The notes beneath the pieces are model-generated. The model saw nothing but the letters and a program-made list of their open reading frames with translations, had not been told where the DNA came from and made no database searches. Shown here piece after piece: positions 11,904-62,533 of a stretch of DNA of 64,000 nucleotides (the first letter of the stretch is position 1; each line of letters starts with the position of its first letter). Both the position numbers and the translations under genes were made by a program. The DNA comes from Mugil cephalus (Eukaryota > Chordata > Actinopteri > Mugiliformes > Mugilidae): positions 7,147,672 to 7,211,671 of the forward strand of contig NC_061782.1 in the NCBI RefSeq assembly GCF_022458985.1, in the 5' to 3' direction.

Positions 11904-12962
11904 TCAGTGGGGCAGGTCGTGATGGACCAGCTTAAAGTGCGAACCACAGGAAGGACAGCGCTGGGGGTTTCCCTCGTGAAGCCAGAACCACACGATAGCA
12001 GTGTTGTCTTCCTCACCTGAGGAGAACCAAAGTATGAGAAACCTGACGTGTAATGCACACGATCCAACGAACAAAATGTGTGTTTAACTTACACAGACAG
12101 CCCACAAGCCTCTTGGTTCCAATGCACGGCACAATATGAGGGTCTTCCTTAGTACCAGCGTAGCCTTTTGGCTCCAGGATACTGTATGGGTCCTGGAATG
12201 AGAGGAAATTAGTACAAGTCATGTTTTAGTACAGAATACACTTGTGTAAAAAAAAAAAAAAAGTGTTGCCTACCTTTCCCTGTTTGAAGGCCTGCAGGGC
12301 ACGTCTCTCCAGTCCAGTGGCCTGTTCGTCATCTGTTGGGATTCCTGCACAAAAAGAAAAAACATAAAGGTGTCATAAAGACAGTGTACAGGCAGTGAGT
12401 GCTCGGAGGACCGCACGTCGGCAGTGGACGCCTCCCACAACAACATACTCCAGTCCCCTATCAGGATGTTGGCATCAACCCAACCCAGCCCAGTCTGCCA
12501 AAGGAGGAGGGTCAATAAAAGGCCTGTCCGCGACTTAGAGTCCAAATGACCTTCATTATTTTATTCAGACACAAACAGCTTGAAAATGAAAGTGGGCGCA
12601 AGTAGAGAGGCCAAAACTATAATATTCCGCTGCTGCTGCTCAATATTTCTGTCTTCCAGTAGCAGTGTATGGTATATAGGGTTTTAGTGAGCAACCAAAC
12701 TACGCACTAGTCTAAAAATATCGCGGTAAAACAGCTTCACAATCAGCCCGTGCTCCTTCAACTTGACTCCGTCATATGGCCGGTGACAGACCTCTGTCTC
12801 CGGGCCTGGATTTGCGGTCTAAAGTCCACACAAGTAAATAAATAAATACGGACTCTTACCTTTCAGTGTGCCCATGGCACGGTGCAGCGGTCTCGCCACC
12901 ACATTGCTCGTCCTCAGCTGCAAAGTTGCTGCACAGGTTCGGAGAAGAAGACGTCCCGCCAT
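11904..12962 (-). CDS. cox5b: cytochrome c oxidase subunit 5B, mitochondrial
   Basis: Exons on the minus strand: 12962-12860, 12344-12274, 12192-12093, 12016-11904. They join in frame to 128 codons plus stop, against 129 in human. The first exon encodes an Arg-rich amphipathic N-terminus ([19 protein letters not shown]), a mitochondrial presequence. Exon 2 reads [14 protein letters not shown], exon 3 [19 protein letters not shown], exon 4 [20 protein letters not shown] and ends HHDLPH. The Cys pairs CLC (exon 3/4 junction) and CPSC are the zinc ligands known in this subunit. It is a nuclear-encoded structural subunit of complex IV on the matrix side. Two CCAAT motifs lie upstream at 13090 and 13111. 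Teleosts can have two paralogues, and I cannot say which this is. Confidence 0.95.
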
Positions 12963-13389
12963 GCTGGTGCCTCTCTCTATCTCTGTCAAAGTGCGAACAG
13001 CGACCTGACTCGGACTTGACCGACTCGACGCGACTGTCGGCTGGACTGAAATGACCCCGACGCAGCCTCGTGAGCGACAGGTGGTCGGACCAATGAGAGC
13101 GGAGACGCGACCAATCAGATTGAAACCGTGGGAGTCACGAGGAACAGGTGAGAGGCGCTTGTTAATAACGAAAATGCCGGTACACACGACATTTAAAAAT
13201 CTACTTTAATCCTTTAATCCGTGAAGGTTTGTGCCAAAGTATTTGTTTTTAAATATTAAAAAATATAACGTACGGTTGGGGGAAGTAGACCTAATCACTG
13301 AAGTGGTAATAGTTTCTATCTCTGAACAAGAAAACTGAGTGGAAACAATGACAGTGATACACGCTTTTACGCGGAATTAAGAGACAGAA
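12963..13389. promoter_or_regulatory. cox5b upstream region, CpG-rich with CCAAT boxes
   Basis: The block 12963-13140 is GC- and CpG-rich compared with its surroundings. It carries CCAAT at 13090-13094 and 13111-13115, 130-150 bp upstream of the cox5b ATG. No TATA box is evident, as is usual for a housekeeping promoter. Beyond about 13200 the DNA is AT-rich and featureless. Confidence 0.5.
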
Positions 13390-14005
13390 AAACACAGGCT
13401 GTTTTGGGGAAAGTTTTATACTACTTTTCGAATGTCAAGGTTAAGTTTTAACCGGTTGTTTATGTACTGTTGCACTGCAATGCCCTACAATAATATTCCA
13501 TACTTGTGTTTTTCCTCGTTCTAAATTGTGTTATTAGTTTGGGCAAATGCACTTACTCACAGGACATTTTCTGGGAAAAACTTTTCAAACGCTCCGTCTT
13601 TCTTTTCTACTTTTCCACATTTGCCTGAATGTTGACCTGTGTTGATTCCTCCTCTGCTGCAGGTGGAGGCGGTGTTGCCGCAAGAAACAGTAGTAATTTT
13701 GGGATGAGAAGAAAAGATGTAGAATGAGTGTTGAATAAACTGTAACATGTAAAAGCAGATGTTTCGTGGGGTGTATTGTGTAGGAGTATGTGCACAAAAA
13801 AAAGACTGTGTTTCATTCTGAAAAAAAGTCAGAATGATTCATCACAACAACTCTTTGCATATCCTCTCCACTCTCTGCTCCATCTTTCTTTTCTACCTTT
13901 CCACATTTCCGCAAGTAACAGTGGTTTCAAGATGCGAAAAGAAGATGTAGAATGAGTGTTGAGGCTGTTGTAAGATGTAAAATGTTGTTAGAGTAGTGAT
14001 AAAAA

Positions 14006-14300
14006 GACTGTGTCCCGCTATATCACTCAGGCTGCACTACAGCGTCTATTCACAGGCGCGATCCCACTACTGAGCGGCACGGGGGCTTTGACCTGCTCCG
14101 TTTCCGACCTGGGCCGGTGCACCCCTCCTTAGGCGACCTGGTGGTCCCGGGCTCCCCCAGGAGCACCATATCGATACCGAACTTAGTGCGGACACCCGAT
14201 CGACATAGTCCGCTGCAGCTCAGAGCTCCTGAGCTCAAACGATCCTCCAGCCTCAGCCTCCCGGTAACTTGGATTACAGGCACGCGCCACCGCACCCGGC
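14006..14300 (-). ncRNA. 7SL / SRP RNA gene, copy 1
   Basis: Read on the minus strand from 14300, the sequence starts GCCGGGTGCGGTGG and follows vertebrate 7SL end to end for 295 nt. It has the 5' Alu-domain UGUAAUCC loop, the S-domain helix 8 with a GGAA tetraloop and AGCAGG internal loop (14090-14109), and the 3' Alu strand. The A tract at 14001-14005 is a Pol III terminator on the RNA strand. TGACGTCA at 14344-14351 lies at -44 to -51, where the vertebrate 7SL promoter has its ATF/CRE site. SRP RNA scaffolds the signal recognition particle that targets nascent secretory proteins to the ER. Class A promoter spacer. No disabling change is visible. Confidence 0.95.
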
Positions 14301-15046
14301 GAGAGTCGCCTTCATTCAATCAAGATTTGGGCTTTTACTGTGGTGACGTCATCACGTAGCACGCTGCAGCGACACCTTGTGACAGACATAACACATGCAT
14401 GAAATACAGTATTACAATAATAACAAATAACTATAAAATAAACATGTGTGCATAAATAAATAAATAAAACAAATGTAAAGAATCCGAAGTAAAACCCAAA
14501 TTCAAAGTCATTCAAAACAATTAAGGTAATGAAATCAGATAAATTAGCAAAATTATAAGAAATTCAATTGAATAACAGTTGCTGCATTTCTATTACCTCT
14601 AGAGGTCAAAGCCCCCGTGCCACACAACAACTCTTTGTTTATTGCATATCCTCTCCACTCTGCTCCACATTTTTTTTCTACCTTTCCACATTTGACGTGA
14701 ATGCTGTGTTCATTCCTCCTCTTCTTGCAGCCAGTAACATTCGTGGTTTTAAGATGAGAAGAGAAGATGTAGACTGAGTTATCATGCGAACTATTTGTTT
14801 GTTACCTATCTTCTCCCTCTGTGCTCCACATTCCATGTTTACTTCTCACCTTTTGTGTTCAATGTTGACTTGAGAGAGGTGGTCATCCGTCCTCTCCTCC
14901 AGGTGGAGGCGGTGTTGCAGCAAGAAACAGTGGGGGTTTTAAATGGAGAAGAGAAGATGTAGAATGAGTGTTGAAGGTATTGTGAAAAGTAAAAGCTGAT
15001 GTTTGATGGTGTGTGCTGTGAGAGTAGTTTGTGTGGTGATAAAAAA

Positions 15047-15341
15047 GACTGAGTCCCGCTGTATCACTCAGGCTGCACTACAGCGTCTATTCACAGGCGC
15101 GATCCCACTACTGAGCGGCACGGGGGCTTTGACCTGCTCCGTTTCCGACCTGGGCCGGTGCACCCCTCCTTGGACGACCTGGTGGTCCCGGGCTCCCCCA
15201 GGAGCACCATATCGATACCGAACTTTGTGAGGACACCCGATCGACATATTCCGCTGCAGCTCAGAGCTCCCGAGTTCAAACGATCCTCCAGCCTCAGCCT
15301 CCCGGTAACTTGGATTACAGGCACGCGCCACCGCACCCGGC
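15047..15341 (-). ncRNA. 7SL / SRP RNA gene, copy 2
   Basis: Full length at 295 nt, with an A6 tract at 15041-15046 as terminator and TGACGTCA at 15385-15392. Class B spacer. It differs from copy 1 by a few substitutions in the S-domain region (AACTTTGTGAGG and GACATATTCCG on the plus strand). The helix 8 motif is intact. Confidence 0.95.
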
Positions 15342-16505
15342 GAGAGTTTCACTCATTCATTCAAGATTTGGGCTTTTACTGCGGTGACGTCATGCTGCAA
15401 CAAAATCTAGTGACGAAAGGGAGAAATTGCACCTGATCGTTAATAGATGTAGTGTTCAAAGATCAGGCCTGTTTAGCGATAAAGGGTTAGTTTGTTTATT
15501 TAGATGATCAATTAAATCAGTTTTTATCTGATCTGCTTTTTGTTTTCTTACAACAGCCAGCTGTCACACAATGGTGCCACAAAGTGGAGAGAGAGTCTGT
15601 AACACAGGGACTGGTCAATGCTGCAGACACGACTACATCTGAGTCATTTAGTTGGTTTGTATATCATTTGTGTCACAGCAAATACACTTTTTAAAAAGAG
15701 AATCATATGAAACTCATAAAGCAAACACTATCTGGGTCTGTACAAATTTGAACATTGACATTTCAAAAGTAGCTAATTGCATTATTTATTTTTTTTAAAT
15801 AGAAACTGTGACCAGTGTGATGAATGTGAAAGGATAATCTATACATTACAGTGTCTATAGTTTCATTGCAGCCACTGTTTAGTGTTAAATAGTTCCTCTG
15901 TAAATCTGATCACTGGAAGATCTTTCACTCGTGTATCCCTTTCAGAGGCAGAAATCTCACAGTTAAACATCCTTAAATCAAACCTCAACAAATAAAAACC
16001 AAAACTTGCAGCCTCTTGATTACAGGCCTATAGCTGAACATAAAAAAATCTCACTCCTCTGTTTGCTTTCAATAAACTGTGTAAGTGACAATAAACACGA
16101 CTTAAATCTTAAAGTAGAAACATTATGAATAAGAATTAGAAATGTTATTTATGTATGTTTTAGTTATTTTTTTATATAAACAATAAAAATAAGTTGAAAA
16201 GCACTTTAAACCTTTAGTTATATTTAAATTGCCTGTATCTGGGACTCTATTTCTAATGATATGAAAAGTAAAGTTGGATGCATTTCATTTGATTGTGTCC
16301 TTATCTTCTCCTTCTGTGCTCCACATTTCTTTACTTTTGCACATTTGCCTGAATGTTGACCTGTGTTGATTTACCCTCTTCTCCAGGTGGAGGCGGTGTT
16401 GCAGCAAGAAACAGTGGGGATTTTAAGATGAGTAGACGTAGAATGAGTGTTGAGGCTGTTGTAAGATATAAAATGTTGTGAGAGTAGTTTGTGTAGTGAT
16501 AAAAA

Positions 16506-16800
16506 GACTGAGTCTCGCTGTATCACTCAGGCTGCACTACAGCATCTATTCACAGGCGCGATCCCACTACTGAGCGGCACGGGGGCTTTGACCTGCTCCG
16601 TTTCCGACCTGGGCCGGTGCACCCCTCCTTAGACGACCTGGTGGTCCCGGGCTCCCCCAGGAGCACCATATCGATACCGAACTTAGTGCGGACACCCGAT
16701 CGACATAGTCCGCTGCAGCTCAGAGCTCCTGAGCTCAAACGATCCGCCAGCCTCAACCTCCCGGTAACTTGGATTACAGGCACGCGCCACCGCACCCGGC
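16506..16800 (-). ncRNA. 7SL / SRP RNA gene, copy 3
   Basis: Full length at 295 nt; A5 terminator tract at 16501-16505; TGACGTCA at 16844-16851. Class A spacer. It shares private variants with copy 5: GAGTCTCGCTG and CAGCATCTATT near the RNA 3' end, and GATCCGCCAG near the 5' end, all given on the plus strand. Confidence 0.95.
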
Positions 16801-17991
16801 GAGAGTTTCCCTCATTCAATCAAGATTTGGGCTTTTACTGTGGTGACGTCATCACGTAGCACGCTGCAGCGACACATTGTGACAGACACAAAACACGCAT
16901 GAAATACAGTATTACAATAATAACAAATAACTATAAAATAAACAAATGTGTGCAGAAAAAATAAATAAAACAAATGTAAATAATCCGAAGCAAAAACCAA
17001 ATTCAAAGTAATTCAAAACTATCAAGGTAATGAAATCAGATAAATTAGCAAAATTATAAGAAATTCAATTGAATAACAATTGCTGAATTTCCATTACCTC
17101 TACAAATGCGCAAAACCTGGTATCGCAATAAAAAAATGCAAATGGAAACGCCTACATTTAAAAAAAAATATATTGCTAAAACACTTTTACGCTCTCATGA
17201 GGTGGTTTTTCAGACGTATCGATACAAAAGTTTATCACAAACTGAGAGGAAATATTAGACATGGAGTTAAGATACAAAAAAACCCACAAACCGTATTGGA
17301 AATAGTTTTATGATGTTTTTCAAATGTCACGTTATAATCTGTTCTTCGTGTAACGTACAGTTGCGCTGCATACAATAAAAGAAAATTCCATACTTGTGTT
17401 TTTCCTCATTTTAAACTGTTGTTTATGTTTGTTTGTTCCAGCTATTCTGGAAATATATGCAAATGCACTTATACTTATTGACAGGAGATTTTCTGACCTT
17501 TTTATGGTCAAAATAAGCATAAAAAGATTGTGTCTCATGCTGAAAAAAAACTGTCAGAATGATTCATCACAACAACTCTTTGTTTATTGCATATCCTCTC
17601 CACTCTGCTCCACATTTTTTTCTACCTTTCCACATTTGACGTGAATGCTGTGTTCATTCCTCCTCTTCTTGCAGCCAGTAACATTCGTGGTTTTAAGATG
17701 AGAAGAGAAGATGTAGACTGAGTTATCATGCGAACTATTTGTTTGTTACCTATCTTCTCCCTCTGTGCTCCACATTCCATGTTTACTTCTCACCTTTTGT
17801 GTTCAATGTTGACTTGAGAGAGGTGTTCATTCCTCCTGTCCTCCAGGTGGAGGCGATGTTGCAGCAAGAAACAGTGGGGGTTTTAAATGGAGAAGAGAAG
17901 ATGTAGAATGAGTGTTGAAGGTATTGTGAAATGTAAAAGCTGATGTTTGATGGTGTGTGTTGTGAGAGTAGTTTGTGTGGTGTTAAAAAAA

Positions 17992-18286
17992 GACTGAGTC
18001 CCGCTATATCGCTCAGGCTGCACTACAGCGTCTATTCACAGGCGCGATCCCACTACTGAGCGGCACGGGGGCTTTGACCTGCTCCGTTTCCGACCTGGGC
18101 CGGTGCACCCCTCCTTGGACGACCTGGTGGTCCCGGGCTCCCCCAGGAGCACCATATCGATACCGAACTTAGTGCGGACACCCGATCGACATAGTCCGCT
18201 GCAGCTCAGAGCTCCTGAGCTCAAACGATCCTCCAGCCTCAGCCTCCCGGTAACTTGGATTACAGGCACGCGCCACCGCACCCGGC
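17992..18286 (-). ncRNA. 7SL / SRP RNA gene, copy 4
   Basis: Full length at 295 nt; A7 terminator tract at 17985-17991; TGACGTCA at 18330-18337. Class B spacer, nearly identical to that of copy 2. No disabling change is visible. Confidence 0.95.
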
Positions 18287-19451
18287 GAGAGTTTCCTTCA
18301 TTCATTCAAGATTTGGGCTTTTACTGCGGTGACGTCATGCTGCAACGAAATCAAGTGACGAAAGGGAGAAATTGCACCTGATCGTTAATAGATGTAGTGT
18401 TCAAAGATCATGCCTGTTTAGCGATAAAGGGTTAGTTTGTTTATTTAGATGATCTATTAAATCAGTTTTTATCTGATCTGCTTTTTGTTTTCTTACAACA
18501 GCCAGCTGTCACACAATGGTGCCACAAAGTGGAGAGAGAGTCTTTAACACAGGGACTGGTCAATGCTGCAGACACGGCTACATCTGAGTCATTTAGCTGG
18601 TTTGTATATCATTTGTGTCACAGCAAATACACTTTTTAAAAAGAGAATCATATGAAACTCATAAAGCAAACACTATCTGGGTCTGTACAAATTTGAACAT
18701 TGACATTTCAAAAGTAGCTAATTGCATTATTTATTTTTTTTAAATAGAAACGGTGACCAGTGTGATGAATGTGAAAGGATAATCTATACATTACAGTGTC
18801 TATAGTTTCATTGCAGCCACTGTTTAGTGTTAAATAGTTCCTCTGTAAATCTGATCACTGGAAGATCTTTCACTCGTGTATCCCTTTCAGAGGCAGAAAT
18901 CTCACAGTTAAACATCCTTAAATCAAACCTCAACAAATAAAAACCAAAACTTGCAGCCTCTTGATTACAGGCCTATAGCTGAACATAAAAAAAATCTCAC
19001 TCCTCTGTTTGCTTTCAATAAACTGTGTAAGTGACAATAAACACGACTTAAATCTTAAAGTAGAAACATTATGAATAAGAATTAGAAATGTTATTTATGT
19101 ATGTTTTAGTTATTTTTTTATATAAACAATAAAAATAAGTTGAAAAGCACTTTAAACCTTTAGTTATATTTAAATTGCCTGTATCTGGGACTCTATTTCT
19201 AATGATATGAAAAGTAAAGTTGGATGCATTTCATTTGATTGTGTCCTTATCTTCTCCTTCTGTGCTCCACATTTCTTTACTTTTGCACATTTGCCTGAAT
19301 GTTGACCTGTGTTGATTTACCCTCTTCTCCAGGTGGAGGCGGTGTTGCAGCAAGAAACAGTGGGGATTTTAAGATGAGTAGACGTAGAATGAGTGTTGAG
19401 GCTGTTGTAAGATATAAAATGTTGTGAGAGTAGTTTGTGTAGTGATAAAAA

Positions 19452-19746
19452 GACTGAGTCTCGCTGTATCACTCAGGCTGCACTACAGCATCTATTCACA
19501 GGCGCGATCCCACTACTGAGCGGCACGGGGGCTTTGACCTGCTCCGTTTCCGACCTGGGCCGGTGCACCCCTCCTTAGACGACCTGGTGGTCCCGGGCTC
19601 CCCCAGGAGCACCATATCGATACCGAACTTAGTGCGGACACCCGATCGACATAGTCCGCTGCAGCTCAGAGCTCCTGAGCTCAAACGATCCGCCAGCCTC
19701 AGCCTCCCGGTAACTTGGATTACAGGCACGCGCCACCGCACCCGGC
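19452..19746 (-). ncRNA. 7SL / SRP RNA gene, copy 5
   Basis: Full length at 295 nt; A5 terminator tract at 19447-19451; TGACGTCA at 19790-19797. Class A spacer. It is almost the same as copy 3, 2946 bp away, differing within the gene at CTCAGCCTCC against CTCAACCTCC. Confidence 0.95.
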
Positions 19747-20968
19747 GAGAGTTTCCCTCATTCAATCAAGATTTGGGCTTTTACTGTGGTGACGTCATCA
19801 CGTAGCACGCTGCAGCGACACATTGTGACAGACACAAAACACGCATGAAATACAGTATTACAATAATAACAAATAACTATAAAATAAACAAATGTGTGCA
19901 GAAAAAATAAATAAAACAAATGTAAATAATCCGAAGCAAAAACCAAATTCAAAGTAATTCAAAACTATCAAGGTAATGAAATCAGATAAATTAGCAAAAT
20001 TATAAGAAATTCAATTGAATAACAATTGCTGCATTTCCATTACCTCTAGAAATGCGCAAAACCTGGTATCGCGTTAAAAAAAATGGTAATGGAAACGCCT
20101 ACATTAAAAAAATAAATAAATATTGCTAAAACACTTTTACGCTCTGATGAGGTGGTTTTTCAGACGTATCGATACAAAAGTTTATCACAAACTGAGAAGA
20201 AATATTAGACATGGAGTTAAGATACAAAAACCGTATTGGTAATAGTTTTATAATGTTTTTCAAATGTCAAAGTTAAGTTATGTTTTAACCTATTGTTCGT
20301 GTAGCATACAGTTGCACTGTAATACCCTAAAATAATATTCCATACTTGTGTTTTTCCACATTTTAAACTGTTATTTATATTAATTTGTTCCAGCTATTCT
20401 GGAAATATATGCAAATGCACGTATACTTACTTGACAGCACATTTTCTGATCTTTTTATAGTGAAAATAAGCATAAAAAAGATTGTGTCTCATTTTGGGAA
20501 AAAAACTGTCAGAATGATTCATCAAAACAACTCGTTGCTTATTGCATATCCTCTCCCCTCTGCTCCATCTTTCTCTTCTACCTTTCCACATTTGTGAATG
20601 CTGTGTTCATTCATTCCTCCTCTCCTCCAGGTGGGGGCGGTGTTGCTGTTGCAGCAAGTCACAGTGGTTTTAAGATGAGAAAAGAAGATGTAGAATGAGT
20701 TATCAGGAGAACTGTTTGTTTATTACCTATCTTCTCCCTCTGTGCTCCACATTTCATGTTTACTTCTCACCTTTTGTGTTCAATGTTGACTTGAGAGAGG
20801 TGGTCATCCGTCCTCTCCTCCAGGTGGAGGCGGTGTTGCAGCAAGAAACAGTGGGGGTTTTAAATGGAGAAGAGAAGATGTAGAATGAGTGTTGAAGGTA
20901 TTGTGAAAAGTAAAAGCTGATGTTTGATGGTGTGTGCTGTGAGAGTAGTTTGTGTGGTGATAAAAAAA

Positions 20969-21263
20969 GACTGTGTCCCGCTATATCACTCAGGCTGCAC
21001 TACAGCGTCTATTCACAGGCGCGATCCCACTACTGAGCGGCACGGGGGCTTTGACCTGCTCCGTTTCCGACCTGGGCCGGTGCACCCCTCCTTAGACGAC
21101 CTGGTGGTCCCGGGCTCCCCCAGGAGCACCATATCGATACCGAACTTAGTGCGGACACCCGCTCGACATAGTCCGCTGCAGCTCAGAGCTCCCGAGTTCA
21201 AACGATCCTCCAGCCTCAGCCTCCCGGTAACTTGGATTACAGGCACGCGCCACCGCACCCGGC
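20969..21263 (-). ncRNA. 7SL / SRP RNA gene, copy 6
   Basis: Full length at 295 nt; A7 terminator tract at 20962-20968; TGACGTCA at 21307-21314. Class B spacer. It has CACCCGCTCGAC in place of CACCCGATCGAC, a variant shared with copies 9 and 10. Confidence 0.95.
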
Positions 21264-22408
21264 GAGAGTTTCCTTCATTCATTCAAGATTTGGGCTTTTA
21301 CTGCGGTGACGTCATGCTGCAACGAAATCAAGTGACGAAAGGGAGAAATTGCACCTGATCGTTAATAGATGTAGTGTTCAAAGATCAGGCCTGTTTAGCG
21401 ATAAAGGGTTAGTTTGTTTATTTAGATGATCTATTAAATCAGTTTTTATCTGATCTGCTTTTTGTTTTCTTACAACAGCCAGCTGTCACACAATGGTGCC
21501 ACAAAGTAGAGAGAGAGTCCGTAACACAGGCACTGGTCAATGCTGCAGACACGGCTACATCTGATTCATTTAGTTGGTTTGTGCAAATACACTTTTTAAA
21601 AAGAGAATCATATGAAACTCATAAAGCAAACACTATCTGGGTCTGTACAAATTTGAACATTGACATTTCAAAAGTAGCTAATTGCATTTAAAAAAAAAAA
21701 TAGAAACTGTGACCAGTGTGATGAATGTGAAAGGATAATCCATACATTACAATGTCTATAGTTTCATTGGGGCCACTGTTTAGTGTTAAATAGTTCCTCT
21801 GTAAATCTGATCACTGGAAGATCTTTCACTCGTGTATCCCTTTTAGAGGCACAAATCTCAGTTAAACATCCTTAAATCAAACCTCAACAAATAAAAACCA
21901 AAACTGGCAGCCTCTTGATTACAGGCCTATAGCTGAACATAAAAAAATCTCACTCCTCTGTTTGCTTTCAATAAACTGTGTAAGTGACAATAAACACGAC
22001 TTAAATCTTAAAGTAGAAACATTATGAATAAGAATTAGAAATGTTATTTATGTATGTTTTAGTTATTTTTTCACATAAACAATAAAAATAACTTGGAAAG
22101 CACTTTAAACCTTTAGTTATATTTAAATTGCCTGTATCTGGGACTCTATTTATAATAATATGAAAAGTAAAGTTGGATGCATTTCATTTGATTGTGTCCT
22201 TATCTTCTCCTTCTCTGCTCCACATTTCTTTTTTACTGTTGCACATTTGCCTGAATGTTGATCTGCGTTGATTTACCCTCTTCTCCAGGTGGAGGCGGTG
22301 TTGCAGCAAGAAACAGAGGGGGATTTAAGATGAGTAGACGTAGAATGAGTGTTGAGGCTGTTGTAAGATGTAAAATGTTGTGAGAGTAGTTTGTGTAGTG
22401 ATAAAAAA

Positions 22409-22712
22409 GACTGAGTCCCGCTATATCACTCAGGCTGCACTACAGCGTCTATTCACAGGCGCGATCCCACTACTGAGCGGCACGCGGGGCTTTGACCTGC
22501 TCCGTTTCCGACCTGGGCCGGTGCACCCCTCCTTAGACGACCTGGTGGTCCCGGGCTCCCCCAGGAGCACCATATCGATACCGAACTTAGTGCGGACACC
22601 CGATCGACATAGTCCGCTGCAGCTCAGAGCTCCTGAGCTCCTGAGCTCAAACGATCCTCCAGCCTCAGCCTCCCGGTAACTTGGATTACAGGCACGCGCC
22701 ACCGCACCCGGC
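22409..22712 (-). ncRNA. 7SL / SRP RNA gene, copy 7, with 8-bp internal duplication
   Basis: 304 nt. The extra length comes from an 8-bp tandem duplication of CTGAGCTC (around 22630-22645) and one extra base in the run near 22485. A6 terminator tract at 22403-22408; TGACGTCA at 22756-22763. Class B spacer. The duplication adds one more GAGCTC palindrome on the 5' side of the S domain, so this copy may fold differently or be a variant. Confidence 0.9.
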
Positions 22713-23837
22713 GAGAGTTTCTTTCATTTAATCAAGATTTGGGCTTTTACTGCGGTGACGTCATGCTGCAACGAAATCAAGTGACGAAAGGGAGAATTGC
22801 ACCTGATCGTTAATAGATGTAGTGTTCAAAGATCAGGCCTGTTTAGCGATAAAGGTTAGTTGTTTATTTAGATGATCAATTAAATCAGTATTTTATCTGA
22901 TCTGCTTTTTGTTTCTTACAACAGCCAGCTGTCAAACAAATGTGCCACAAAGTGGAGAGAGAGTCTTAACACAGGACTGGTCAATGCTGCAGACACGCTA
23001 CATCTGATCATTTAGTTGGTTTGATGCAAGATAACACTTTTTAAAAAGAGAATCATATGAAACTCATAAAGCAAACCTATCTGGTCTGTACAAATTTGAA
23101 CATGACATTCAAAAGTAGCTATTGCATTAAAAAAAAATAGAAACTGTGACCAATGTGATGAAATAGAAAGAAATAATCATACATTAACATGTCTATAGTT
23201 TCATTGCGCCACTGTTTAGTGTTAAATAGTTTCCTCTGTAAATCTGATCACTGGAAGATCTTCACTCGTGATCCCTTTCAGAGGCAAAATCTACAGTTAA
23301 ACATCCTTAAATCAAACCTCAACAAATAAAAACCAAAACTGCAGCCTCTTGATTACAGCCTATAGCTGAACAAAAAAATCTCACTCCTCTGTTTGTTTCA
23401 ACAAACTGTGTAAGTGACAATAAACACGACTTCAAATCTTAAGTAGAAACATTATGAATAAGAATTAAATGTTATTTATGTATGTTTTAGTATATTTTTT
23501 ATATAAACAATAAAAATAATTGAAAAGCACTTTAAACCTTTTAGTTATATTTAAATTGACTGTATCTGGACTCTATTTCTAATAATATGAAAAGTAAAGT
23601 TGATGCATTTCATTTGATTGTGTCTTAATTCTTTCTTCCTCTCTTGCTCCACATTTTTTCTTTACTTTTGCACATTTGCCTGAATGTTGATCTGCGTTGA
23701 TTTACCCTCTTCTCCAGGTGGAGGCGGTGTTGCAGCAAGAAAGAGTGGGGATTTTAAGATGAGTAGACGTAGAATGAGTGTTGAGGCTGTTGTAAGATGT
23801 AAAATGTTGTGAGAGTAGTTTGTGTAGTGATAAAAAA

Positions 23838-24132
23838 GACTGAGTCCCGCTATATCACTCAGGCTGCACTACAGCGTCTATTCACAGGCGCGATCCCACT
23901 ACTGAGCGGCACGGGGGCTTTGACCTGCTCCGTTTCCGACCTGGGCCGGTGCACCCCTCCTTAGACGACCTGGTGGTCCCGGGCTCCCCCAGGAGCACCA
24001 TATCGATACCGAACTTAGTGCGGCACACCCGATCGACATAGTCCGCTGCAGCTCAGAGCTCCTGAGCTCAAACGATCCTCCAGCCTCAGCCTCCCGGTAA
24101 CTTGATTACAGGCACGCGCCACCGCACCCGGC
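23838..24132 (-). ncRNA. 7SL / SRP RNA gene, copy 8
   Basis: 295 nt overall, but with one inserted base (GCGGCACACCCG) and one missing base (CTTGATTACAGG), both in the half encoding the RNA 5' side. A6 terminator tract at 23832-23837; TGACGTCA at 24175-24182, one base closer than in the other copies because the flank lost a base. Class B spacer. The small indels could be consensus errors. Confidence 0.9.
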
Positions 24133-25303
24133 GAGAGTTTCCTTCATTCATCAAGATTTGGGCTTTTACTGCGGTGACGTCATGCTGCAACAAAATCTAG
24201 TGACGAAAGGAGAAATTGCACCTGATCGTTAATAGATGTAGTGTTCAAAGATCAGGCCTTTTTTAGCGATAAAGGGTTAGTTTGTTTATTTAGATGATCA
24301 ATTAAATCAGTTTTATCTGATCTGCTTTTTGTTTTCTTACAACAGCCAGCTGTCACACAATGGTGCCACAAAGTGAGAGAGAGTCTGTAACACAGGACTG
24401 GTCAATGCTGCAGACACGACTACATCTGAGTCATTTAGTTGTGTATCATTTGTGCACAGCAATACACTTTTTAAAAAGAGAATCATATGAAACTCATAAA
24501 GCAAACGCTATCTGGTCTGTACAAATTTGAAAATTGACATTTCAAAAGTAGCTAATTGCATTAATATTTTTTTATAAAATAGAAACTGTGACCAGTGTGA
24601 TGAATATGAAAGGATAATCTATACATTACAATGTCTATAGTTTCATTGCAGCCACTGTTTAGTGTTAAATAGTTCCTCTGTAAACCTGATCACTGGAAGA
24701 TCTTTCACTCGTGTATCCCTTTTAGAGGCAGAAATCTCACAGTTAAACATCCTAAAATCAAACCTCAACAAATAAAAACCAAAACTTGCAGCCTCTTGAT
24801 TACAGGCCTATAGCTGAACATAAAAAAATCTCACTCCTCTGTTTGTTTCAACAAACTGTGTAAGTGACAATAAACACGACTCAAATTTAAAGTAGAAACA
24901 TTATGAATAAGAATTAGAAATGTTATTTATGTATGTTTTAGTTATTTTTTTTATATAAACAATAAAAATAAGTTGAAAAGCACTTTAAACCTTTAGTTAT
25001 ATTTAAATTACCTGTATCTGGGACTCTATTTCTAATAATATGAAAAGTAAAGTTGGATGCATTTCATTTGATTGCGTCTTTATCTTCTCCTTCTCTGCTT
25101 CTCCACATTTCTTTTTAACTTTCGCACATTTGCCTGAATGTTGATCTGCGTTGATTTACCCTCTTCTCCAGGTGGAGGCGGTGTTGCAGCAAGAAAGAGT
25201 GGGGGGTTTAAGATGAGTAGACGTAGAATGAGTGTTGAGGCCGTTGTAAGATGTAAAAGACGACGTTTAATGTTGTGAGAGTAGTTTGTGTAGTGATAAA
25301 AAA

Positions 25304-25598
25304 GACTGAGTCCCGCTATATCACTCAGGCTGCACTACAGCGTCTATTCACAGGCGCGATCCCACTACTGAGCGGCACGGGGGCTTTGACCTGCTCCGTT
25401 TCCGACCTGGGCCGGTGCACCCCTCCTTAGACGACCTGGTGGTCCCGGGCTCCCCCAGGAGCACCATATCGATACCGAACTTAGTGCGGACACCCGCTCG
25501 ACATAGTCCGCTGCAGCTCAGAGCTCCTGAGCTCAAACGATCCTCCAGCCTCAGCCTCCCGGTAACTTGGATTACAGGCACGCGCCACCGCACCCGGC
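25304..25598 (-). ncRNA. 7SL / SRP RNA gene, copy 9
   Basis: Full length at 295 nt; A6 terminator tract at 25298-25303; TGACGTCA at 25642-25649. Class A spacer that includes an (AT)n run near 25911-25928. It has the CACCCGCTCGAC variant. Confidence 0.95.
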
Positions 25599-26523
25599 GA
25601 GAGTTTCCTTCATTCATTCAAGATTTGGGCTTTTACTGTGGTGACGTCATCACGCAGCAGGCTGCAGCGACACCTTGTGACAGACACAACACATGCATGA
25701 AATACAGTTTTACAATAATAACAAATAACTATAAAATAAACAAATGTACAGAAGAAAATAAAATAAATGTAAATAATCCGAAGTAAAGGCCCAATTTAAA
25801 ATCATTCAAAACAATTAAGATAATGAAATCAGATAAATTAGCAAAGTTATAATGAATTAATTTGAATAACAATTGCTGCATTTCCATTACCTCTAGAAAA
25901 CGCCTGCATTATATATATATATATATATTGCTAATACACTTTTAGGCTCTCATGAGGTGGTTTTTCAGAAGTATCAATATAGACATGGAGTTAAGATACA
26001 AAAACCGTATTGGAAATAGTTTTATGATGTTTTTCAAATGTCAAAGTTAAGTTACGTTTTAATCTGTTCTTCATGTAGCGTACAGTTGCACTGCAATACC
26101 CTAAAATAAAATTACATACTTGTGTTTTTCCTCATTTTAAACTGTTATTTATATTAGTTTGTTCCAGCTATTCTGGAAAAATATGCAAATGCAATTATAC
26201 TTCTTGACAGGAGATTTTCTGACCCTTTCATAGTCAAAATAAGCACAAAAACATTGTGTCTCATTCTGAAAACAAACAAAACATAAAAACAGAATGATTC
26301 ATCACAACAACTCTTTGCTTATTGCATATCCTCTCCACTATCTGCTCCGTCTTTTCTACTTTTGCACATTTGACGTGAATGCTGTGTTCATTCCTCCTCT
26401 CCTCCAGGTGGAGGCGGTGTTGCAGCAAGTAACATTCGTGGTTTTAAATGGAAAAGAGAAGATGTAGAATGAGTGTTGAAGCTGTTGTAAAATGTAAAAG
26501 GTGATGTTTGATGGTGTTAAAAA

Positions 26524-26810
26524 GACTGAGTCCCGCTATATTACTCAGGCTGCACTACAGCGTCTATTCACAGGCGCGATCCCACTACTGAGCGGCACGG
26601 GGGCTTTGACCTGCTCCGTTTCCGACCTGGGCCGGTGCACCCCTCCTTAGACGACCTGGTGGTCCCGGCTCCCCAGGAGCACCATATCGATACCGAACTT
26701 AGTGCGGACACCCGCTCGACATAGTCCGCTGCAGCTCAGAGCTCCTGAGCTCAAACGATCCTCCAGCCTCACTCCCGGTAACTTGATACAGCACGCGCCA
26801 CCGCACCCGC
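26524..26810 (-). ncRNA. 7SL / SRP RNA gene, copy 10, with scattered deletions
   Basis: 287 nt. Eight bases are missing at separate sites, all between about 26665 and 26810: in the CCCGGCTCCCC run, in CCTCACTCCCGG, in ACTTGATACAGCACG and in CACCCGCGAG. The half encoding the RNA 3' side is intact, as are the A5 terminator tract (26519-26523) and TGACGTCA (26851-26858). Class A spacer. It is either a decaying copy or an unpolished consensus. Confidence 0.8.
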
Positions 26811-27671
26811 GAGAGTTTCTTCATTCATTCAAGATTTGGGCTTACTGTGGTGACGTCATCACGCACAGGCTGCAGCGACACCTGTGACAGACACAACACA
26901 GCAAAATACAGTTTTACAATAATAACAATAACTATAAAATAAACAAATGTACAGAAGAAAATAAAATAAATGTAAAAATCCGAAGTAAAGGCCCAATTTA
27001 AAATCATTCAAAACAATTAAGAAATGAAATCAGATAAATTAGCAAAGTTATAATGAATTAATTTGAATAACAATTGCTGCATTCCATTACCTCTAGAAAC
27101 GCCTGCATTATATATAATATATATTGCTAATACACTTTTAGCTCTCATGAGTGTTTTTCAGAATATCAATATAACATGAGTTAAATACAAACCGTATTGA
27201 AATAGTTTATGATGTTTTTCAATGTCAAAGTTAAGTTACGTTAATCTTTCTTCATGTACTACAGTTGCACTGCAATACCCTAAAATAAAATACATACTGT
27301 GTTTTTCTCATTTTAAACTGTTATTTATATTAGTTTGTTCCATATCTGGAAAAATAGCAAATGCAATTATACTTCTTGACAGGAATTTTCTGACCCTTCA
27401 TAGTCAAAATAGCACAAAAACATGTGTCTCATTCTGAACAACAAATAAAAACAGAATGATTCATCACAACACTCTTTGCTTATTGCTATCCTCTCCACTA
27501 TCTGCTCCGTCTTTTCTACTTTTGCACATTTGACGTGAATGCTGTGTTCATTCCTCCTCTCCTCAGTGAGCGGTTGCAGCAAGTAACATTCGTGGTTTTA
27601 AATGAAAAGAGAAATGTAGAATGAGTGTTGAAGCTGTTGTAAAATGTAAAAGGGAGTTGATGGTGTTAAAA

Positions 27672-27954
27672 GACTGAGTCCGCATATTACTCAGCTGCAC
27701 TACAGCGTCTATTCACAGGCCGATCCCACTACTGGCGGCACGGGCTTTGACCTGCTCGTTCCGACCTGGGCCGTGCACCTCCTTAGACGACCTGGTGGTC
27801 CCGGGCTCCCCCAGGAGCACCATATCGATACCGAACTTAGTGCGGACACCCGATCGACATAGTCCGCTGCAGCTCAGAGCTCCTGAGCTCAAACGATCCT
27901 CCAGCCTCAGCCTCCCGGTAGCTTGGATTACAGGCACGCGCCACCGCACCCGGC
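27672..27954 (-). ncRNA. 7SL / SRP RNA gene, copy 11, with deletions in 3' half
   Basis: 283 nt. About twelve bases are missing, all between 27672 and about 27780 (RNA 3' half); from 27780 to 27954 the sequence is clean. Only four A residues (27668-27671) remain as terminator. TGACGTCA is at 27998-28005. Class A-like promoter flank that soon runs into a GAAA microsatellite. This is the promoter-proximal end of the array. Confidence 0.8.
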
Positions 27955-28103
27955 GAGAGTTTCCTTCATTCATTCAAGATTTGGGCTTTTACTGCGATGA
28001 CGTCATCACGCAGCACGCTGCAGCGACACCTTGTGACAGACACAAAACATGTACTACAACACAGTGCTACAACAATAGCAAATAAAATACCCAAATGTGT
28101 GCA

Positions 28104-28105
28104 AA

Positions 28106-28169
<64 letters not shown>

Positions 28170-28172
28170 AAA
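28104..28172. repeat. (GAAA)n microsatellite
   Basis: About 16 units of AAAG/GAAA run without interruption. They sit beyond gene 11 and mark the right edge of the 7SL array. Confidence 0.95.
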
Positions 28173-28731
28173 ATATTCAAATCGAAATACTGAAGTTGTT
28201 GCAGATAAAGCTGCAAAATTATATAAATATATTTATATAAAAAAAAAACAATTCAATTGAATGATAATGAGGATAGAAGCAATTACTAATGTAATAAATG
28301 TGTAAACTGAACTTAGTAGGTGGTGACTTTTTCCAAGTGTTTCTCAATGCTGCTTGAAAACGTGAAATCATAGGTCATCAGTCAGATGTCACTCTTTGTC
28401 TCTTATTGATGTTTGGAGGTGACTGCGTAGAGGGGTTATTTTAAGATGGAAAGTACGTCAGCGCTGAGAGAAAATTATGACCCTCTTTCCACAGCAGGAG
28501 CCCTTTTTTGTTGTTTTTTCAACACAGGCGTTTACGTAACAAGTCATGTGTCTGGTGATTAACATCTTTCAGGTGCAGGGCCTGCCTCTCGAAAATGCAG
28601 TGTGTCCAGTAGCGCTGGTTCTTTGTGGGTGTTTCCCACGGTTGTCTTGACGCAGTGTGGTCTGATGTCTCAGAGCAGAAGGAACCTATTTAATTCACTC
28701 AGAGTACAAGCAGAAAAAAGACGAGACAAGC
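28173..28731. promoter_or_regulatory. intergenic; putative promoter of the 84-aa gene
   Basis: A TATTTAA box lies at 28687-28693, about 40 bp before the ATG at 28732. A TATA-driven, tissue-restricted promoter with a short 5' UTR is therefore plausible. Nothing else is recognised in the interval. Confidence 0.4.
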
Positions 28732-30056: not shown

Positions 30057-31732
30057 TCAGACATACTTTGCTTTGGCCTTTCCTGAAGGAGACAAAAGAA
30101 AGAGAGGTGTTGACAATGACTAAAGATTAGAGGAAATCACATGATGCCTTTGTTTGTCATCTCGGAAATACCAGTCAGTGTCTCTTACTCCAGACGCGGC
30201 TGTTGAGCTTGTCCCCAAGCAGGTAGAGCAAAGTCACCACGGACATGTTGAAAAAGAAGAAGACCACCAGACCTGCGGCACTGAAGCGCCCAAGGAGGGG
30301 GTACACCCAAATCCCGACTGACACATACACCCATACAATCCTGCAGAAACAAACAGTATCACTGCATCCATCGGATCATCTTGCACTGTCTTGTATAAAA
30401 AGAAAAGATCGTTCATGCAAATGTTCTACCTGCTAACACTGAAACAGTAAAAAATAAATAAATCTCACTCACAGCATACTGTGTTTAAGATTGGTTCTGT
30501 TGAAAATGTGAGCATTATGCATAAAGGTATAAACGAACTTCCAGCCTGAAGCTGTTTGTGTTGTGAACTGGTGCACACCACTGCACCATACCACACATTT
30601 AGACACTGCAGCACAGACATTACAGATAACACTCTGGCATTTGTGCGTTCACTACATGTCTCCCCAGGGCATCTCTGATAAGTTGTCAAAGCAGACGTTT
30701 GCTTCGTTTGTCTGATCAAAGAAACATTTACTTAGAACTCTTGCAAAGGAAAAGAACTGTGTGCTGCTTCATGCATAGTTGAGCTGAACTTTAAGAATGT
30801 TATCTTAGTTAGCTCTCGCACAAGGATAAGAGTTAGATGATGGAACGTGCGTCATTAACTTAGCAGCAGCATCTCCTCTGTAACTTTCATTGGGCAACAG
30901 GTTTGACTTTGCAGACCTTTATAACAGTTTGTCGTAATACCACTGGACATGGTGTCTTAACACTCACCAAAATAAATAAGACAAGCCCACAACTCCTAAT
31001 GCTGCCAGCGCATGTTTGGTCTGTGGGTAGATGTGAGGCTGCACCAGCATTTCTCCAAGTAAAACAGGAAGGACTAATGTGTGCTGAGAAAACACAAAAG
31101 TTAGAACCGGAGAAAAAGGTCACCATAAAGCACAAATTAATAAAGGATTTAATGAAGTGATAAGTTTACAGACCATAGCGTGGTTAATCCAGGGAGGGAA
31201 GAAGGCGTCGATGCTAGCTGGGTACACTAACTCTCTGTCATAGGCAAAGATTGTCCAGAAAAGTAGCACCACAAACTAAATAAAGTGCAGGCGACAGAGA
31301 GTTAATGCAATGAATTGTAGTCATTTTGTGATAAAAGTGTAGGTGTGTTTTGCAAAATGCGTTTCTCACCATGCCCACAGGGAAGGCAAAGACAGAGAAG
31401 AGGTAGTCTTTACATCTGGTCAGAGTGCTCTCTGCCTTCTTCCCAGGTTGTAGATCGTTCACTGCTGCCAGTCCAAAGAATGTCATCTGCAACAACTAAG
31501 ATATCACAAGAAATTTTCACATCTCCATCACACCAATGTTTAAATAAAACCACCAGGCGAATATGAGTAACGTGCTCACCAAATTCAAAAACGTGAGGTA
31601 CTTCCAAGGTCCTCCGTAAACAAAGATTCCTGGTGGCAGCTCCTCTCCATCCTTGGCCGTGAGGCTCTTAACGACAAAAGCGTACCAGCTGAATGCCGAG
31701 ATGTGATACACTCTCCTCAGGGCCGAAGTCAT
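30057..31732 (-). CDS. adtrp: ADTRP-like membrane FAHFA hydrolase (AIG1/ADTRP family)
   Basis: Six exons on the minus strand: 31732-31580, 31486-31370, 31275-31174, 31083-30968, 30340-30189, 30082-30057. They join in frame to 221 codons plus stop (human ADTRP is 230). Recognisable segments are [49 protein letters not shown] and [12 protein letters not shown], in the order of the family. The family are multi-pass ER/plasma-membrane threonine hydrolases of fatty acid esters of hydroxy fatty acids; ADTRP also affects TFPI in endothelium. The catalytic Thr falls at residue 47 and the His at 125, within NHAMHT split over an exon junction. Both are present. The last exon encodes only RKAKAKYV. AATAAA follows four bases after the stop, so the 3' UTR is very short. 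ADTRP is favoured over AIG1 by the N-terminal region. Confidence 0.92.
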
Positions 31733-34700
31733 TTTCAGTCTACGCTTATACTGATCCCCAGCAAACAGCAAACAATAAATTAAACATGGGCAAACGCTAC
31801 GGGTAAGATTTCCCTTCAGAGGTGAAGTTCTTGAGGCAGGCAAGGTTCTTTAGAGATTAGTGGACTTCAGCGCGGGCTTATCAAGACATTGGTGAGCGGC
31901 GGAGACAAAGCAAACCCTTGCCAGACAAGAGGCTCACTGTTCAGTTATAAAGCATGGGAGATCCTCTTTCATAACTGGGACCATGTGACTCCGAGGCAAA
32001 TTCAGTCACAGCTTAATCTGTTTCAGAGCGTTTTGCAAGAGAAACCCCAGCCGAGTTAAATCAGGCTCCCTCCGCACATTTTATAACTATTAGCGACGTA
32101 ACAGCCTACGTAAGTGTCATTATAGAAGAATGTCTACAGGGGGTCCTATCGTCTCAGTCAAGGTTACTTTCGTAACTTTTAGTGAGCTGATGTAAAGTTC
32201 GGAACGTACTCGTGTGGCTTTGTGGAAGCTGAAACAAGAACAACTAGACTTTCTTGAAGATATTTCATCATCATCATCATCGTCCAAGTAGCTTCTTCAG
32301 TTCTATTTGGCTCCTTGGGAGCAGAGATTTAAATAGGAACATCTGAGTTGCCCCAATTTGTTGAATAACTGGAACATCTGTCAGACTTTATCAAATATTT
32401 TACATAGATTTATTACCGCAGATCCAGGAATTATTGATTCAAGAAAGACGACAAACGCAACATGGAATACAGGATGGTTACTTGCACGAAGATTGATATT
32501 ACTTAACTGGAAACAGCTTATTCAAATCTTATGACAGATGTTATGAGACATTTAGAGCTGGACAAAAACAGGTATTTACTGAAAAAGTAAATAAAGAAAG
32601 TGCTATAGAACCTTTATCGATTATTTTAACCACACCACATAGTCCACATAGTTTAGAGGAGCTCCTAACCCTTCAACAGAAGGAAAGGAATTTTTATTTT
32701 GTATTAGTATAGTTTCATTTATTTTCTTTCCTTTCTTTGTTTAGGTTTGATTTTCCTTTTTGAATCCCCATCATCTGTCTATTTGTCATTTTGAAATTAA
32801 AAAGTTATGAATGTAAACGTGAACGTGCAAATGTATAAAGTGTTGAGTTTTAAAGGGCTTAATAAGGCCTTCAGCCTATGTATAACCTTGGGAAGAATCA
32901 AGAAGAATTTTACTTATGCTATCTCATCATCAATCGTTGTCTTTCGCTTTCGCTACAGCTTGCACACAGATTAGGACACATTACACCCTGATATCTCACA
33001 TGCTGGAGACCAGATAAAGCTAATCGACTACACATAGAAACTCACTGACACATGAGAGGCAGTACTCCTCCCCATTGTCTTACGGGCGGGATCTAGGTAG
33101 AATAAGATCACTGTACGTCCCTGAAGTGGGGCTTTTGGTTATTTTCACCCCTAAGGTGAACTGACCGAAGCCTCAGCGCTGAAATCAATATCTATTCTCT
33201 GTGTACAAAATAAACATCCAAAACGTGAGAAATTGTCGCGTGATTTGTGCGTAGGTGAACTACCCTTTCCAAATGGTATAAAGATCCTGGGCTGAAGGAG
33301 AGGAAAATATCCTCCTTCGACAAAAGTCTATAAAGAGTGTGGGAAAAAAATGTGGGAACATCTGTGGGTGTTGTCCACCAGAAACTCATGACTGGGGTCT
33401 GTTAACGACCAGATACTCGAATCTGTGTTGGTCCTTTATTTTGTCAAGGTGTGAACCGGTTGTGAAACCTTTTTGGGGGGCGGATGTTTCCATTGTCTCT
33501 GGCCCCTAGTGGGTTGCTAGAGGACCTTTCATTGAAGAAAGGGAACTGGATTAAAACTAACTCTCTAACTAGGCAAACTAAGAAACTTTAGTTGTTTGCA
33601 CATGTACCTGCGTTCATTCAACCTAGATAAAATAGTTGGGGGGACGAAGGTGAAGCTCATCAGCAAGTTTAATCAACAAGTTTTTTCAGTGCATAGATTC
33701 CTAATTAAACTCCAATTCACCAGTCATTTAAAACTGAAGAACTATTGGTCTCCTAAAATTCAGCCCCCCACCCACACTCCTGTACTCAGAGTCCTGACGT
33801 CTGATAATACGGTTCACAATAGCAGAATGGTCGGAGAACTTCTGCAGATGGCAAAACTGTGAGAAGTATCTGATGTCTGATGTGTATGAGCAGAAAGGTT
33901 GGACCTGTCAGAGGTCACATGGTGTTAAAGGTGCTGGAGAAGTCAAAGAACTCACATTGTGTTTCCACACGAGCAGTGAAATGTCTCCAAAAAGTTGTTT
34001 TAGCTCTGTTTTGTTTTTGTTCTTTTTTTGGATACGCCATCGCCCGGTTGATTGTGAACCTTCAAAGAGTAATGTGACTTTACTAGTTGTTGGTATAAGT
34101 TTGGTCTTTCTATATACTTGCAAGAAGCAGACAAAAAAAGCACATTGAGACAGTTTGTATTGTTGTTGATGCTATATACATAAAATTGAATTGAATTGAA
34201 TTGAATTGAATTGAATTGAATTGAATTGAATTGAATTGAATTGAATTGAACAGCTTTGTGCCGCAGACATATTTTTGGCCTGATGATGGTGCAAGAGGAG
34301 AGGCCTTGATTTAATACCACCATGACGTAATCAACAAACTCTGACACAACTCACTGTGTGTTGCAAGAAACTATGACTCACATTAGGTGTAGAACAACAC
34401 GTGTGATTACTGTGAAAAGGAACAGTATTATTACACACGGCAAATTGTCACAATCCCTTGTGCCAAGATTCGAGGCAAAACACCTTTAGAAGCTCAGTCC
34501 AACTGAAAAACCAAACCAGCAGGCTAACAGCCAGCTACCAACTAGCAACCAACTAGTAGACACCAGCTAACTAGCCTAGCCAACAGCAGTAGGCCCATAA
34601 AATCCCGTCCACCAGTGTGAGTGGGAAATTCCAGCATTTCAACCACCCTGACAGTAGTAAGTATAAGAACATATGAACTGTTTATTTCATTTCCTACATT

Positions 34701-55443: not shown

Positions 55444-62533
<7,090 letters not shown>

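Follow-up and report, generated by a model that had tools for sequence, protein, structure and literature searches.

A tandem array of full-length 7SL RNA genes in one orientation in Mugil cephalus

The 7SL array and its neighbors

The analyzed window, a 64-kb stretch of the Mugil cephalus genome, contains 11 matches to the Rfam Metazoa_SRP model (RF00017) above the gathering score, all on the minus strand between positions 14002 and 27954 (cmscan, Table 1), and hence arranged head-to-tail in one orientation, as in an rDNA-like array. Every match spans model positions 1 to 299 of 299 and lies well above the curated cut-off of 70 bits, with scores of 199 to 276 bits and E-values of 5.7e-53 to 2.3e-75; 9 copies reach at least 250 bits. 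These results bear out an earlier note on this DNA, which had described 11 full-length units, S domain included, in a single orientation, and the limits proposed there for the array (13390–28105) are correct to within tens of bases when compared with those obtained from spacer similarity (13373–28119). The starts of the array genes are spaced by 1,041 to 1,517 bases. No further RF00017 matches in the window were recovered at E ≤ 0.01 with laxer filters, no other RNA genes in the array spacers exceeded the cut-offs in the covariance search of the window, and no tRNA genes were detected in the window by ARAGORN, run with the bacterial code.

The placement of the array between cox5b and adtrp, also proposed in the earlier note, is supported on the downstream side by a tblastn match to human COX5B, with one cox5b exon alone scoring 26.6 bits against Pfam COX5B (under the cut-off of 31), and on the upstream side by an exon with a Far-17a_AIG1 domain, which we take to belong to an adtrp-like gene. 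Array genes other than c01, c02, and c05 are 97.7% to 99% identical to the c08 gene. Barring c01 and c02, the copy with the most differences from the majority sequence is c10, with 7, and the c05 gene carries 1 extra base and an 8-base tandem duplication.

Table 1. Features of the 7SL locus (positions in the window)
Feature	Positions	Strand	Remarks
cox5b exons, downstream-side neighbor (matched part only)	11907..12348	-	tblastn with human COX5B, E 1.4e-30
Whole array with spacer remnants at either end	13373..28119	-	Spacer similarity, ends approximate
7SL copy c11	14002..14300	-	274.2 bits; B-type over part of upstream spacer
7SL copy c10	15043..15341	-	260.8 bits; A-type
7SL copy c09	16502..16800	-	270 bits; B-type; 1 substitution compared with c07
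7SL copy c08	17988..18286	-	276.5 bits; A-type
Conserved 52-base promoter, example upstream of c08	18287..18338	-	CRE TGACGTCA at −51 to start site
7SL copy c07	19448..19746	-	273 bits; B-type
7SL copy c06	20965..21263	-	271.4 bits; A-type
c05 unit, rich in small indels	22403..23831	.	Compared with c06 unit
7SL copy c05	22405..22712	-	250.3 bits; A-type; indel-rich unit
7SL copy c04	23834..24132	-	269.4 bits; upstream spacer A-type
7SL copy c03	25300..25598	-	274.9 bits; upstream spacer B-type
7SL copy c02	26520..26811	-	230.5 bits; inside suspected unpolished stretch, losses mainly in 5' half
Suspected unpolished or falsely duplicated stretch	26540..27797	.	Copy of 25320–26661
7SL copy c01	27668..27954	-	199.2 bits; 3' half inside suspected unpolished stretch
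adtrp-like exon, upstream-side neighbor	31520..31849	-	Far-17a_AIG1 domain, 29.5 bits, cut-off 24.5

Clustered and lone 7SL genes in the genome

A DNA search of the 634.8-Mb assembly revealed at least 17 copies of 7SL (17 of 17 candidates scored; the number is a lower bound, as very diverged fragments could be missed). Eleven of these are in the array, 3 form a second cluster approximately 0.6 Mb away, and 3 are lone genes, one located 5.3 kb to the left of the window and two on another contig; the array thus accounts for 11 of the 17 detected genes by count. The 6 copies outside the array score 273 to 281.5 bits against RF00017. A family search of the genome, in which 26 of 9,854 first-look candidates were scored and which also gives a lower bound, recovered the same 17 copies, one of which has an end shorter by 2 bases in the DNA search; in its control, a signal was obtained in 5 of 14 known genomes and exceeded the cut-off in 0 of 14. 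Sixteen copies cover query positions 1 to 299 and one covers 3 to 299, so that none lacks more than 2 bases. In human, the few functional 7SL genes lie near each other and are accompanied by many pseudogenes. The distinction made earlier from genomes in which retroposed copies abound therefore stands for the 17 essentially full-length copies of this lower bound. In length and upstream promoter elements, these do not resemble 7SL-derived SINEs or retropseudogenes, which are dispersed, lack the parental promoter, and are often truncated. No MADF gene (ADF-1L of PMC11893794) was recognized near the two C21 genes when the listed open frames were scanned by eye.

The 14 clustered copies (array and second cluster) have the block from −52 to −1 in common, whereas the proximal promoters of the 3 lone genes are 16% to 36% identical to that of c08 in an ungapped comparison; the proximal promoter is kept among clustered copies only. 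The lone genes have a CRE-like site of their own at −50 and an A/T-rich box, TTTAAAA or TTAAAA, at −31/−30, where the clustered genes have no such box; an A/T-rich run instead starts at −37 in 12 of the 14 clustered copies (−36 in c04, none found in c02). Within the gene, all 14 clustered copies have T at base 19 and all 3 lone copies have C, with a standard pair to G8 in either case; at base 34, the 3 lone copies again have C, and 13 of the 14 clustered ones have T. Across 13 copies (leaving out c01, c02, c04, and c05), 24 of 295 gene positions are variable. A standard pair is kept in every copy at 11 of these, and another 4 fall at positions that the model leaves unpaired; at the remaining 9, some copy is without a standard pair, including positions 55, 81, 277, and 281, where no copy has one, and positions 93 and 116, which are changes in c10. 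The differences in promoter layout and diagnostic bases between clustered and lone 7SL genes are new here, and make the usage of the 2 sets testable, since ordinary RNA reads can separate cluster transcripts from those of lone genes.

Promoters, spacers, and a doubtful stretch

The earlier claim that each unit carries a CRE and a T-tract terminator, as expected of RF00017 members, is correct for all 11 array genes. The first base of the CRE, TGACGTCA, is at −51 in 9 of them (−50 in c04 and −47 in c02), and the gene is followed by a T-run of T4 in c01 and T5 to T7 in the other 10. In mammalian 7SL genes, the CRE consensus, likewise TGACGTCA, is found at −51/−44, and mutating it weakened transcription of the human 7SL gene in vitro, according to the available part of PMC7279448. 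The sequence CCCAAATC occupies −31/−24 in 9 array genes and is the same but shifted in c02 and c04. Its A/T content is lower than that of the box in the 3 lone genes, and the array genes might be transcribed more weakly from it.

The upstream spacers fall into 2 classes, A and B, which alternate from c06 to c11 and are unalike beyond −52. A-type spacers are 91% to 99% identical to the c08 spacer, and B-type spacers are 76% to 98% identical to that of c09 over alignable parts. A copy of the 52-base CRE-to-start promoter (−52 to −1) is present upstream of every array gene: the c08 block matches at 90% to 98% upstream of the 6 array copies of class B and of all 3 copies in the second cluster, and in the 4 other class A copies it falls within whole-spacer matches to c08. 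When c09 (class B) and d2 (second cluster) were compared with c08 (class A), identity was 92% to 100% in 2 bins from −50 to −1 and 12% to 44% in 10 bins from −300 to −51, with the genes themselves being 97.6% and 98.6% alike, respectively. Thus, since the spacer classes share little beyond the −52 to −1 promoter, the promoter-gene cassette is constant while the spacers drift. In addition, a near-identical block of 1.2 kb recurs 2.95 kb away within the array. The description of the locus as rDNA-like holds in part: it fits this repeated block, but there are merely 10 to 11 units, not the tens to hundreds expected of an rDNA-like array, and spacers have diverged by up to a quarter inside one class.

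The uncertainty in copy number stems from positions 26540–27797, which, over 1,258 bases aligned with 25320–26661, display 70 deletions and a single substitution but no insertion. This pattern suggests unpolished reads or a false duplication, and therefore the copy number that can safely be given is 10 to 11, with at most one array unit judged from these alignments to be in clear doubt. The low scores of c01 and c02 probably reflect an error in the assembly consensus rather than pseudogene decay, because the copy of the neighboring unit shows deletions almost alone; the possibility that c01 and c02 are decaying edge genes is disfavored by the same counts. A further qualification is the c05 unit, which is rich in small indels and differs from the c06 unit by 49 of these and by 31 substitutions. 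The 5 other unit pairs compared differ by 17 to 62 substitutions each over 1,404 to 1,468 aligned bases.

Interpretation and comparison with known systems

We consider it highly probable, from the features of the sequence, that the locus harbors working 7SL genes in a small tandem array, which would have grown by duplication and exchange, conserved its cassette, and raised 7SL gene dosage. Each gene would be an independent RNA polymerase III unit, consisting of an ATF/CREB site at −51, an internal type 2 promoter, a gene of approximately 299 nt, and a T-tract terminator. Growth would have proceeded by tandem duplication and unequal exchange, as suggested by the alternating spacer classes and the repeated 1.2-kb block, and selection or gene conversion, which are not separable from one genome, would keep the cassettes alike while the spacers drift. 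If so, SRP RNA dosage could be altered at a compact vertebrate locus by removing a single 14-kb block.

It is very improbable that the array is mostly an artefact in which one or a few genes were expanded by repeat misassembly. Although the c01–c02 unit is nearly a deletion-only copy of the c02–c03 unit and the c05 unit is rich in indels, the 5 other unit pairs differ by numerous substitutions, and misassembly of a single gene cannot yield 2 spacer classes that share little upstream of −52. We attach similarly little weight to the view that the array consists of 7SL pseudogenes, whether retroposed or inactivated in another way: a retrocopy would not carry the CRE-to-start block, which is kept in every array copy, a T-run follows each gene, and the close identity to c08 extends to all genes besides c01, c02, and c05. 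Only c01 and c02, the lowest-scoring copies, with bases missing inside the gene, point toward decay, but their losses are restricted to a stretch nearly free of substitutions.

A further reading, which we regard as unlikely yet less remote than these, is that clustered and lone genes represent 2 specialized 7SL systems serving different stages or secretion demands, for instance egg or stress versus body-cell supply. The putative cluster class would comprise the 14 copies with T19, the CRE at −51, and the A/T run at −37, and the putative lone class the 3 copies with C19, in which the CRE-like site sits at −50 and the A/T-rich box (TTTAAAA or TTAAAA) at −31/−30. The separation of the 2 sets by bases 19 and 34 (the latter with 1 exception among clustered copies) and by the placement of the A/T-rich run is consistent with such a division, for which the 2 zebrafish rRNA types offer a precedent (PMC5513064, available part); if it were true, SRP would exist in 2 RNA types, as zebrafish ribosomes do. 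However, the 2 sets may differ simply because the clusters descend from a single founder, and the pairing of base 19 is unaffected by the change. The 8 adjacent 7SL genes of miiuy croaker respond to infection, which is in line with such a division, but so does a croaker gene outside the cluster (PMC11893794, available part).

Returning to the array of working genes, its members resemble other metazoan SRP RNA genes (RF00017) in the full-length match, Alu and S domains, CRE at −51, and T-run, and differ in forming an array of one orientation. Tandem 5S rRNA genes likewise consist of a Pol III gene and a spacer repeated in a single orientation, but the present array has far fewer units and 2 spacer classes. 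Rodent 4.5SH RNA genes are also 7SL-derived, Pol III-transcribed tandem repeats with upstream CRE-like and TATA-like boxes, but they number hundreds of copies in repeats of 4 to 5 kb and specify a separate nuclear RNA, not SRP RNA (PMC7279448, available part). The detected complement in M. cephalus, small and essentially full length, contrasts with the more than two thousand 7SL copies that PMC11893794 gives for primates. The closest counterpart is described in the same source, the only report of fish 7SL clusters found in the literature searched: miiuy croaker has 24 7SL genes, 8 of which (7SL-9 to 7SL-16) are adjacent on chromosome 12, and read depth is greatest for 7SL-23, located outside the cluster on chromosome 19. 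The earlier suggestion that the array is the main source of SRP RNA in M. cephalus is therefore not supported, although it makes up 11 of the 17 detected genes. Both teleosts have adjacent 7SL genes on one chromosome and others elsewhere, with 8 genes in the croaker cluster compared to 10 to 11 in the present array. Because 7SL clustering itself thus has a teleost precedent in print, the array is only moderately surprising and serves as a tidy example.

Full-length 7SL genes in the window and across the genome

Infernal with the Rfam model Metazoa_SRP (RF00017; cut-off, 70 bits) yielded 11 matches in the 64-kb window, all spanning model positions 1–299 with scores of 199–276 bits. The same matches, with none added, were recovered in the window under laxer filters with E ≤ 0.01, and no other Rfam family exceeded its cut-off there. 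The genes (c01 to c11, numbered from 27954 downwards) start 1041–1517 bases apart, the CRE core, an ATF/CREB site, is present 5′ of all 11, and every gene carries a terminal T-run of length 4 to 7. These results confirm the claim of the earlier note that eleven full-length 7SL genes lie here in one orientation, each with a CRE and a T-tract, and the proposed position between cox5b and adtrp is also borne out, by tblastn on one side and by a domain match on the other (see table). One cox5b exon taken alone scores 26.6 bits, below the Pfam COX5B cut-off of 31, and the name adtrp for the gene with the Far-17a_AIG1 domain is presumed.

The genome search with RF00017, proposed alongside that of the window, covered the 634.8-Mb assembly (24 contigs) and returned at least 17 places (26 of 9854 first-look candidates were scored). 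A DNA search with c08 returned the identical 17 copies, likewise a lower bound, from 17 candidates, all scored; query coverage was 1–299 in 16 copies and 3–299 in one. The contig of the window, C13 (the window being 7147672-7211671), holds 15 of the 17, namely the array, a second cluster of 3 genes and a lone gene, and the remaining 2 are lone genes on C21. The 6 copies outside the array score 273.3–281.5 bits. No population of truncated 7SL copies was found genome-wide by either search, both being lower bounds which strongly diverged fragments may escape.

7SL loci and other features (C13, contig coordinates; window, positions in the 64-kb stretch)
Feature	Position	Strand	Basis or remark
7SL array	window 14002-27954	minus	11 Metazoa_SRP matches
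Second cluster	C13 6547644-6550617	one orientation	three full-length 7SL genes, spacing 1327 and 1348 bases
Lone 7SL gene	C13 7142037-7142335	opposite to array	5.3 kb left of window
cox5b	downstream of array	minus	tblastn with human COX5B, E 1.4e-30
adtrp-like gene (presumed name)	upstream of array		Far-17a_AIG1 domain
Short-period simple repeat	window about 28070-28250		adjoins upstream end of array; repeating KERK frames, by eye
HECT-domain gene	window 7038-10262	plus	three frames match Pfam HECT
Stop-to-stop frame	window 36681-40766		1362 codons; neighbours SACK1 frames
SACK1 frames (presumably FAM83-type)	window 41825-42553	minus	Pfam SACK1
mlh1-like gene	window 58234-61948	plus	DNA_mis_repair and Mlh1_C domains

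Copy number and assembly quality

When 26540–27797 is aligned to 25320–26661, the 1258 aligned bases show a single substitution and no insertions, along with 70 deletions that remove 84 bases in all; 45 of the 70 deletions trim runs of like bases, in which 47% of the bases sit. Four other unit pairs differ by 17–62 substitutions and 2–17 small indels each, and the units of c05 and c06 by 31 substitutions and 49 small indels. The combination of 70 deletions with a single substitution looks like unpolished long-read sequence rather than ordinary divergence, and a false duplication is another possible account, given a length close to that of one unit. The low scores of c01 and c02 therefore call for a reading other than decay, and neither these two copies nor c05 were classed as pseudogenes. 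Thus, while the eleven copies of the earlier note were all found as matches, the array is best described as containing 10 or 11. By contrast, the intact stop-to-stop frame, which perhaps forms one gene with the SACK1 frames (36681-42553), is so long as to suggest that the assembly is clean around it.

Promoters, spacers and sequence variation

PMC7279448 places the CRE consensus of mammalian 7SL genes, TGACGTCA, at −51/−44 and a TATA-like box at −31/−24, and reports that altering either reduces in vitro transcription of human 7SL. In 9 of the 11 array copies, the same CRE core begins at −51, with TAAAA at −37 and CCCAAATC at −31/−24; the elements of c04 are shifted by one base (CRE at −50), and c02, located inside the suspect stretch, has its CRE at −47 and no TAAAA run. 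All 3 genes of the second cluster carry TGATGTCA at −51 in place of the CRE, together with the TAAAA of the array at −37. In each of the 3 lone genes, a CRE-like site (TGACGTCA, TGACGTTA or CGACGTCA) sits at −50, together with an A/T box (TTAAAA at −30 or TTTAAAA at −31), their proximal promoters being elsewhere unlike the cluster type (16–36% ungapped identity). The downstream flank of the lone C13 gene resembles the array spacers, yet its promoter groups with those of the other lone genes.

Upstream spacers of the array fall into class A (c04, c05, c06, c08 and c10; 91–99% identity to that of c08) and class B (c01, c02, c03, c07, c09 and c11; 76–98% identity to that of c09 over the aligned parts, the alignment being partial in c01 and c11), in the order BBBAAABABAB from c01 to c11. 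Ungapped comparisons of c08 with c09 and with d2, a copy from the second cluster, gave 92–100% identity for the pair of 25-base bins covering −50 to −1, but 12–44% for the ten that cover −300 to −51. Within the gene itself, c08 is 97.6% identical to c09 and 98.6% to d2. The 52-base block of c08 up to the start site is present 5′ of all other clustered copies (90–98% identity where reported as a separate match), and immediately 3′ of the genes the two classes are ~70–85% alike for up to about 250 bases. Because the bases from −50 to −1 and the genes are alike but the spacers are not, the constant part is mainly the cassette from CRE to terminator. Either selection or conversion could account for this constancy, the two being indistinguishable from one genome. 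Over about 1.2 kb, the segment from 20061 down to 18847 (a spacer end, c07 and the start of the next spacer) differs from its match 2.95 kb away by 3 substitutions and 1 deletion, whereas adjoining parts of these units show up to 13 substitutions per 100-base bin. Such a trace would be expected after a recent duplication or exchange of two units.

Within the RNA, base 19 is T in all 14 clustered copies and C in all 3 lone genes, which also have C at bases 34 and 55, where T and A are found in 13 and 12 of the 14 clustered copies, respectively. Either base at position 19 keeps the pair with G8, and the clusters look derived, since the Rfam consensus has c at this position. Among 13 copies (7 from the array, 3 from the second cluster and 3 lone; c01, c02, c04 and c05 left out), 24 of 295 gene positions vary. 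Every copy keeps a standard pair at 11 of these (partners 67 and 276 counted separately), 4 are unpaired in the model and 9 lack a standard pair in some copy, including 4 (55, 81, 277 and 281) at which no copy pairs. Seven differences from the majority occur in c10, 2 of which (93 and 116) disrupt a pair intact in the other copies.

Proposed working of the array and comparison with known systems

Full-length genes, promoter elements, terminators and a conserved cassette are all present in the array. In the best-supported reading, each unit would be transcribed as an independent Pol III gene; the array would increase 7SL dosage, and its RNA would be incorporated in SRP. The array is real, functional-looking and tidy, with a useful two-class pattern. 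By analogy with miiuy croaker, a lone gene may be the leading source in this fish. That species has 24 7SL genes, of which eight adjacent ones on chromosome 12 are infection-sensitive, and the deepest RNA-seq reads belong to 7SL-23 on chromosome 19, which rises with infection too (PMC11893794). Clustering of teleost 7SL genes is thus already in print and not new as such, although the accessible part of that paper describes the eight by adjacency alone, without spacing, orientation or promoter details. In rodents, the 7SL-derived 4.5SH RNA genes form hundreds of tandem 4-5 kb repeats (PMC7279448). For a bolder reading, in which clustered and lone genes would be two types of 7SL, the distinct egg and somatic types of zebrafish 5S and 45S rRNA (PMC5513064) serve as a model.
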